Positions 62,181 to 63,921 of a stretch of DNA of 64,000 nt are shown in pieces. The notes beneath the pieces are model-generated. The model ran no database searches and had not been told where the DNA came from. It worked only from the letters and a program-made list of their open reading frames with translations. Numbering within the stretch: position 1 is the stretch's first letter; each line of letters opens with the position of its first letter. The DNA is taken from NCBI GenBank assembly GCA_016869715.1, contig VGDM01000009.1:1-64000 (forward strand), in the 5' to 3' direction. The stretch comes from Alphaproteobacteria bacterium (GTDB lineage: Bacteria; Pseudomonadota; Alphaproteobacteria; Acetobacterales; Acetobacteraceae). Position numbers and translations under genes: made by a program.

Positions 62181-62789
62181 ATGACGCCTTCCCGTTTCGG
62201 CGATAATCGCCGGCGCCGCATCGGCCTTTTGGGCGGGTCCTTCAACCCGGCCCATGCCGGGCATCGCCATGTCGCGCACCAGGCGCTCCGCGCGCTTCGG
62301 TTGGATCAGGTTTGGCTTCTGGTCTCGCCGGGCAATCCCTTGAAGCCGCTTGTGGGGATGGCGCCTCTGCACGAACGTTTGGCGAGCGCGCGGCGCATTG
62401 CCGATGGCAGGCAAGTGATCGCGACCGATTTCGAAAGGGCGCTCGATACGCGCTTCACCGCTGATACGCTGGCGAAACTGCGGCAGCGCTTTCCGCACGC
62501 GGATTTCGTATTTCTGATTGGCGCGGATAATCTGGTGCAATTACCGCGCTGGAAAGCCTGGCGTCGCATCGCCACTTCTACCCCATTGGCGGTGTTACCG
62601 CGTCCCGGCTGGACAAGGCGCGCGCTTCGCGGTGCGGCGGCTTCGGTGCGGCGCCGCCAGCGTTGCCGGCCCGGGGCGTTGCTTGCCGGCACCAAGCGGG
62701 CTACGACACCGGCGAGATGGTGTTTCGTCCCTGCGCGGGAAAACGCTGCTTCGGCCACCGCGATCAGGGCGGCAGGGTTACACCCGTGA
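62181..62789 (+). CDS. nadD: Nicotinate-nucleotide adenylyltransferase
   Basis: IGLLGGSFNPAHAGHRHVAHQALRALRLDQVWLLVSPGNPLK, FVFLIGADNLVQLPRWKAWRRI, terminal SATAIRA. Confidence 0.93.
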   Translation: MTPSRFGDNRRRRIGLLGGSFNPAHAGHRHVAHQALRALRLDQVWLLVSPGNPLKPLVGMAPLHERLASARRIADGRQVIATDFERALDTRFTADTLAKLRQRFPHADFVFLIGADNLVQLPRWKAWRRIATSTPLAVLPRPGWTRRALRGAAASVRRRQRCRPGALLAGTKRATTPARWCFVPARENAASATAIRAAGLHP

Positions 62790-62813
62790 TATATCGAGCA
62801 AGAGGAGGCGGCC

Positions 62814-63470
62814 ATAGCCCGCAAGCCCACCCCGGCTGAAGAAAGCCCAAAGCGGCGCGTCGCCACCGCGCCAAAACCCAAAGCCAAGAGCAGCGCAAAG
62901 CCGAAACTCGCTGCTGCGTCCAAGGCGAAGGCCGCGCCGAAAGCCGAGGCTGCCAAGCCAGCCCCAAAGCGCGCTGGTGCGAAAGCATCCGCCGCGAAGC
63001 CTGCGGCCAAGGGCAGCAAGGCTGCGCCGAAGGCGAAAGCCGCGATCGCCAAAACACCGACAGCACCGCGCCCAGGGCGCACCAAACGCCGCACGAAAAT
63101 TGCGCCGGATCGGCTGGAATTGCTTGTGGATGCCGCGCGCAAAAGCCTGGAAGACGACAAGGCCGAAAACATCGTCGTCTTGGATGTGGCGGGCCGCGCC
63201 GATTACACGGATCGCCTGATTATCGCGACCGGCCAGGTGGAGCGCCAATTGCAAGCCATGGCAGCGCATTTGGATGAGGCGCTTGGCAAGGCCGGGCTGC
63301 ATCTCCGGCGCGATGCCGTCCAGGCCTCGCCGGATTGGGTGCTGATTGATGCGGGCGATCTGGTGATCCATCTGTTCCGCCCCGATGCGCGAGAGCTCTA
63401 TCGGCTGGAACGCATGTGGGGTCCGGAAAGCCCCGCGCAGACGGAGCAGGCAGACGCTGCGCGCGGTTAG
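62814..63470 (+). CDS. rsfS: Ribosome silencing factor RsfS with Lys/Ala/Pro-rich N-terminal extension; apparent ATA start
   Basis: AGGAGG, 5 nt, ATA; open frame to [55 protein letters not shown]...[32 protein letters not shown] track lists only the 63120 TTG fragment. Confidence 0.85.
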
Positions 63471-63921
63471 GATCATTGCCGTCGGGCGGATCAAATCGGG
63501 GCCAGAGGCAGCGCTTTACGCCCATTACGCAGCGCGGCTGCGCCCGGCGCCCGAATTGGTCGAAATCCCCGAAGCGCGCGGCAGCGCTGGCGAAATCCGC
63601 CGGCGAGAGGGTGCGGCGATCCTCGCCGCCATGCCTGATGCTGCGGTGCCGGTGGCCCTGGACCTTGGCGGCGCCACACCGGATACTGAGGGTCTAGCCG
63701 CGCTGCTGACGCGCTGGGATGAAGCCAGGCGCGCGGTGTGTTTCATGATTGGTGGTGCGGAAGGGCTGGATCAGGCCGTGCAGGCGCGAGCGGAATACCG
63801 GCTCTCACTCGGCCCGCTCACCTGGCCGCATTTCCTGGTGCGCGGGATGCTGGCGGAACAGCTCTACCGGGTGCAGGCGATCAGGACAGGCCATCCCTAT
63901 CACCGGACTTGGCGGCCATGA
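63457..63921 (+). CDS. rlmH: 23S rRNA (pseudouridine1915-N3)-methyltransferase RlmH; start uncertain (CTG 63457, GTT 63466 or ATG 63385)
   Basis: [80 protein letters not shown]. Confidence 0.93.

Follow-up and report, generated by a model that had tools for sequence, protein, structure and literature searches.

An AUA start codon of rsfS conserved in a Roseomonas-like genus and its likely relation to infC-like control by IF3

Introduction

To our knowledge, selection maintains a noncanonical start codon in very few genes. The closest described system is infC, the gene of initiation factor IF3, a protein that prevents subunit joining from the 30S side. It begins with the near-cognate codons AUU, AUC or AUA behind a strong Shine-Dalgarno (SD) sequence, and its autoregulation has been demonstrated in E. 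coli. IF3 represses initiation at noncanonical codons, as established experimentally for infC with ATT or ATC and for Streptomyces sigR with GTC (PMC5472188). In S. aureus, infC and ccpN have AUA starts with an extended SD, noncanonical starts give about 10-30% of the output of AUG, and those of citZ and cvfC1 cut output in a way that varies little, if at all, with the medium (PMC13009471). According to a reference cited in PMC13009471, the AUU codon of E. coli pcnB is an inefficient start that limits a protein best kept scarce.

RsfS binds uL14 of the 50S subunit and prevents subunit joining, as is known for the S. aureus and E. coli proteins (PMC7125091, PMC13246957). In E. coli without rimM, IF3 and RsfS are both upregulated and both occur on free subunits (PMC13246957).

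The rsfS gene described here resembles infC in its AUH start and strong SD, and within its genus the two genes agree in start codon, in SD spacing and in the codons that follow. However, rsfS encodes a protein other than IF3, so that any such control would act in trans. Like sigR, rsfS is a gene outside infC with a conserved noncanonical start that gene finders misplace, whereas sigR uses GTC rather than AUH, encodes a sigma factor and has demonstrated repression by IF3. The conserved AUA of S. aureus ccpN and AUU of cvfC1 also follow an extended SD and lower output, although these are unrelated Firmicutes genes with experimentally mapped initiation. The pcnB product differs in not being a ribosome factor. 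The E. coli ortholog of rsfS (NP_415170.4) adjoins rlmH and is likewise annotated with a start other than AUG, but its TTG is a canonical alternative and the protein has no Lys/Ala/Pro extension. The sequence features of the infC class, namely a start other than ATG, GTG or TTG, its conservation across species and a strong SD, are all found at rsfS and would place it in that class. No report of a conserved noncanonical rsfS start was found in full-text searches limited to open-access papers.

Results

The window is a stretch of 64,000 nucleotides from the draft genome (196 contigs) of a Roseomonas/Neoroseomonas-like bacterium. The genes nadD, rsfS and rlmH lie in one direction near its end, with the following features.

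62181..62789, + strand: nadD, nicotinate-nucleotide adenylyltransferase (Pfam CTP_transf_like, E=4.7e-19), from ATG 62181 to TGA 62787-62789
62803..62808, + strand: SD AGGAGG of rsfS with a 5-nt spacer to the start codon (sequence; invariant in 28/28 genus loci)
62814..62816, + strand: ATA, very probable start codon of rsfS (sequence and conservation; homologous to the ATG of sister genera)
62814..63470, + strand: rsfS coding sequence from this ATA, 218 codons plus TAG (Pfam RsfS PF02410, E=5.9e-26, residues 108-202)
62814..63134, + strand: N-terminal extension of RsfS rich in Lys, Ala and Pro (variable across the genus, spanning 95-314 codons between ATA and anchor; in frame throughout)
63454..63921, + strand: rlmH with a putative ACG start at 63454-63456 (Pfam SPOUT_MTase, E=3e-38; ACG by homology to the GTG of sister genera)

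The start region reads AGGAGG, spacer CGGCC, ATA, then GCC CGC AAG, exactly as the original prediction had claimed. Its two further readings also held: the in-frame stop upstream is TGA 62787-62789, with no ATG, GTG or TTG between it and 62814, and the first such codon in frame is TTG 63120, upstream of the RsfS domain, which begins at 63135 and spans profile positions 3-98 of 98. The nadD stop precedes the ATA by a gap of 24 nt. No SD is present in the 14 nt preceding TTG 63120 (CGGATCGGCTGGAA), and the canonical codons of the other frames (GTG 62786, GTG 62977 and TTG 63100 in a scan of 62760-63119) all lack one. ATA is rare among isoleucine codons, accounting for 56 of 1025 in the window's open reading frames and 6 of 196 in the rsfS domains of the genus. 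No signal of stable RNA structure was obtained at the rsfS start (z 0.34 and 1.26); a small GGC/GCC hairpin with the AUA in its loop is possible there and is ordinary for the base composition. The extension is repeat-like and resembles a disordered basic tail.

Of the thirty rsfS loci examined in the genus, 28 have an intact 5' end, and AGGAGG-N5-ATA-GCC-CGC was present in all 28. Positions -11 to +9 are invariant save -5, and every column from -24 to -14 is variable; within an 18-locus subclade, each site from -60 to -14 varies. In three loci (L007, L008 and L010), an in-frame TAG overlaps the SD and ends 9 nt before the ATA, so that in these relatives the frame cannot start upstream of it. 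Six loci lack any canonical codon from the upstream stop to the RsfS domain. The extension is in frame in 28/28 loci with its first codons conserved, and TTG 63120 is not conserved. From the sequences, it is very probable that AUA 62814 is the start codon of rsfS.

In the other genera of the Roseomonas group, ATA, ATC or ATG occupies the homologous position, before A-R-[TSKAMN]-P (IARTPK or MARTPK). The original prediction had proposed a comparison of ortholog start codons; these were ATA in every intact genus locus and one of the three codons in the sister genera. Among named loci with the motif there were 39 ATA (30 from the genus itself), 13 ATC and 8 ATG. AGGAGG accompanies 51 of the 52 AUA or AUC starts and none of the 8 AUG starts (Fisher p=3.5e-9, without phylogenetic correction); when the genus is excluded, the figures are 21/22 and 0/8. 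At least 13 codon changes were counted on a poorly resolved RsfS-domain tree, only 3 of them between AUG and non-AUG. At the third base A, C and T interchange and G is rare. A change from ATA to ATG takes one transition and yet is rare, which points to selection against G.

The wider range was surveyed with an SD-based start caller that has no codon preference. Among Acetobacteraceae genera, rsfS was called with 12 ATA, 20 ATC, 1 ATT and 1 CTG versus 3 ATG and 3 TTG, with 19 uncalled. Across Alphaproteobacteria, sampled at one genome per family or genus, there were 16 ATA, 8 ATC, 5 ATT and 17 CTG versus 4 ATG, 5 GTG and 2 TTG; 33 were uncalled, many class-level loci having no clear SD, and individual calls at this level are provisional. 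The AUA, AUC and AUU starts recur across the class, and a sample of beta- and gammaproteobacteria had ATG or TTG and none of these three. In two loci of one alphaproteobacterial family (L421 and L424) a CTG lies behind AAGGA with an ATG or GTG downstream, and the start is ambiguous.

Controls were used to judge the caller. In the window's open reading frames, noncanonical starts made up 6 of the 21 SD-backed calls, and the caller therefore proves nothing without conservation. Most nadD genes have no SD, and 2 of 119 were noncanonical without an alternative; the SD-backed nadD calls were CTG in 12/20 and ATH in 2/20. Since the caller wrongly favors CTG here, only ATH calls should be counted. 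The rpmI/rplT controls were absent from the family loci and few in the class. The nadD gene of a Roseomonas mucosa locus (L106) has no canonical start before its conserved motif.

The infC loci were compared by alignment. The infC start is ATA in 30/30 genus loci, and infC and rsfS of the genus have the same SD-to-codon distance, the same next codons and the common motif AGGAG-N6-ATA-GCY-CG. The analogy to infC drawn in the original prediction is thus much stronger than could be seen there, and the interpretation given in it is supported in part. In the window's genome the motif occurs exactly twice, at infC (contig C8, 50741) and at rsfS (contig C9, 62803). Among 34 genus genomes, 65 of 72 matches fall at infC or rsfS by coordinates, with one of the 65 (infC in G015) placed by motif likeness only, and a reversed-pattern control gave 1 match. 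Because the pattern was written post hoc from infC and rsfS themselves, these counts describe genome-wide specificity and are not an independent test. The shared start-site motif suggests that IF3 and RsfS, both of which block ribosome assembly, are kept at low levels in the same way. In the family, ATC in rsfS often goes with ATA in infC, CTG in infC occurs with ATA in rsfS, and rsfS has ATG in two clades; the start codons are not matched one-to-one, and strict coupling is therefore not general. A wider AUA regulon in the window's genome was also considered and rejected, as two further loose matches (C17:24276 and C29:30826) are not gene starts. Within the family infC also has mostly ATA. In most of the Alphaproteobacteria sampled (L262-L411) infC starts with ATA, and in most others with ATC, CTG or ATT.

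Discussion

The codon, its conservation, the compensating SD and the motif shared with infC can be read directly from the genomes. From these we infer a sensitivity to IF3 and a co-regulation with infC. The favored reading, held as reasonably likely, is that rsfS is initiated at AUA 62814 through the strong SD, that the weak codon is under selection and that control by IF3 is probably of the infC kind; regulation of rsfS linked to IF3, taken by itself, appears somewhat probable from the analogy. The strong SD would select AUA 62814 for initiation, and selection would maintain the weak codon. Complexes of the 30S subunit on AUA, AUC or AUU would be destabilized by IF3, keeping RsfS low while IF3 saturates the 30S subunits; when IF3 becomes limiting, RsfS output would rise along with that of IF3 itself. 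Since IF3 on the 30S and RsfS on the 50S subunit are both anti-association factors, a common start site would let their levels move together, and by sharing the infC device rsfS would place both under one fidelity check. More tentatively, IF3 in Alphaproteobacteria may control itself and RsfS through a common AUH start, a two-gene regulon balancing the anti-association factors of the 30S and 50S subunits.

The possibility was considered that the ATA is a sequencing error or a private point mutation of an ATG, which had been the null hypothesis of the original prediction. The 28 ATA loci include separately sequenced isolates and MAGs that were independently assembled. The same block in all of them excludes an error at this codon and leads to rejection of the null, in favor of which nothing was found and which retains a negligible probability. 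A start at another site (TTG 63120, an internal GTG or ATG in relatives, or a codon in another frame followed by a frameshift) would agree with those gene finders that are restricted to ATG, GTG and TTG, and TTG 63120 does lie ahead of the Pfam domain. However, that codon has neither an SD nor conservation in the genus, the in-frame extension with its conserved first codons precedes it in 28/28 loci and in the scanned interval the other two frames offer no SD-backed canonical codon, making such a start very improbable.

It could also be argued that ribosomes finishing nadD reinitiate on rsfS, so that codon identity was relaxed and drifted. The short gap after the nadD stop would allow this, and the next gene, rlmH, is also without a canonical start in the genus. 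Drift, however, should often have produced ATG, and the strongest SD accompanies the weakest codon; with G avoided at the third base and a compensating SD, this explanation is weaker and is regarded as improbable. The main rival, by our ranking, accepts AUA as the start and holds that it sets a constant low level of RsfS, IF3 varying too little to regulate it. It fits all the sequence evidence for the start codon as well as the behavior of S. aureus citZ and cvfC1 (PMC13009471), but an exact motif common only to infC and rsfS is more specific than it needs. A constant level is unlikely on balance, though clearly less so than reinitiation.

If IF3 does control rsfS, the start codon would be one testable device linking two factors that keep the subunits apart, and would offer an answer to how the level of RsfS is set. 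The gene would add a selected noncanonical start across much of a whole class, and it would be mis-annotated wherever gene finders accept just ATG, GTG and TTG.

The downstream gene was also inspected. In the genus loci L031-L059, L061 and L096, rlmH has no ATG, GTG or TTG near its start, and an in-frame ACG (63454-63456 in the window) is invariant. It is possible that rlmH starts at this ACG or is translated by reinitiation after rsfS. The ACG aligns with the GTG start of rlmH in Belnapia, Siccirubricoccus and Falsiroseomonas.
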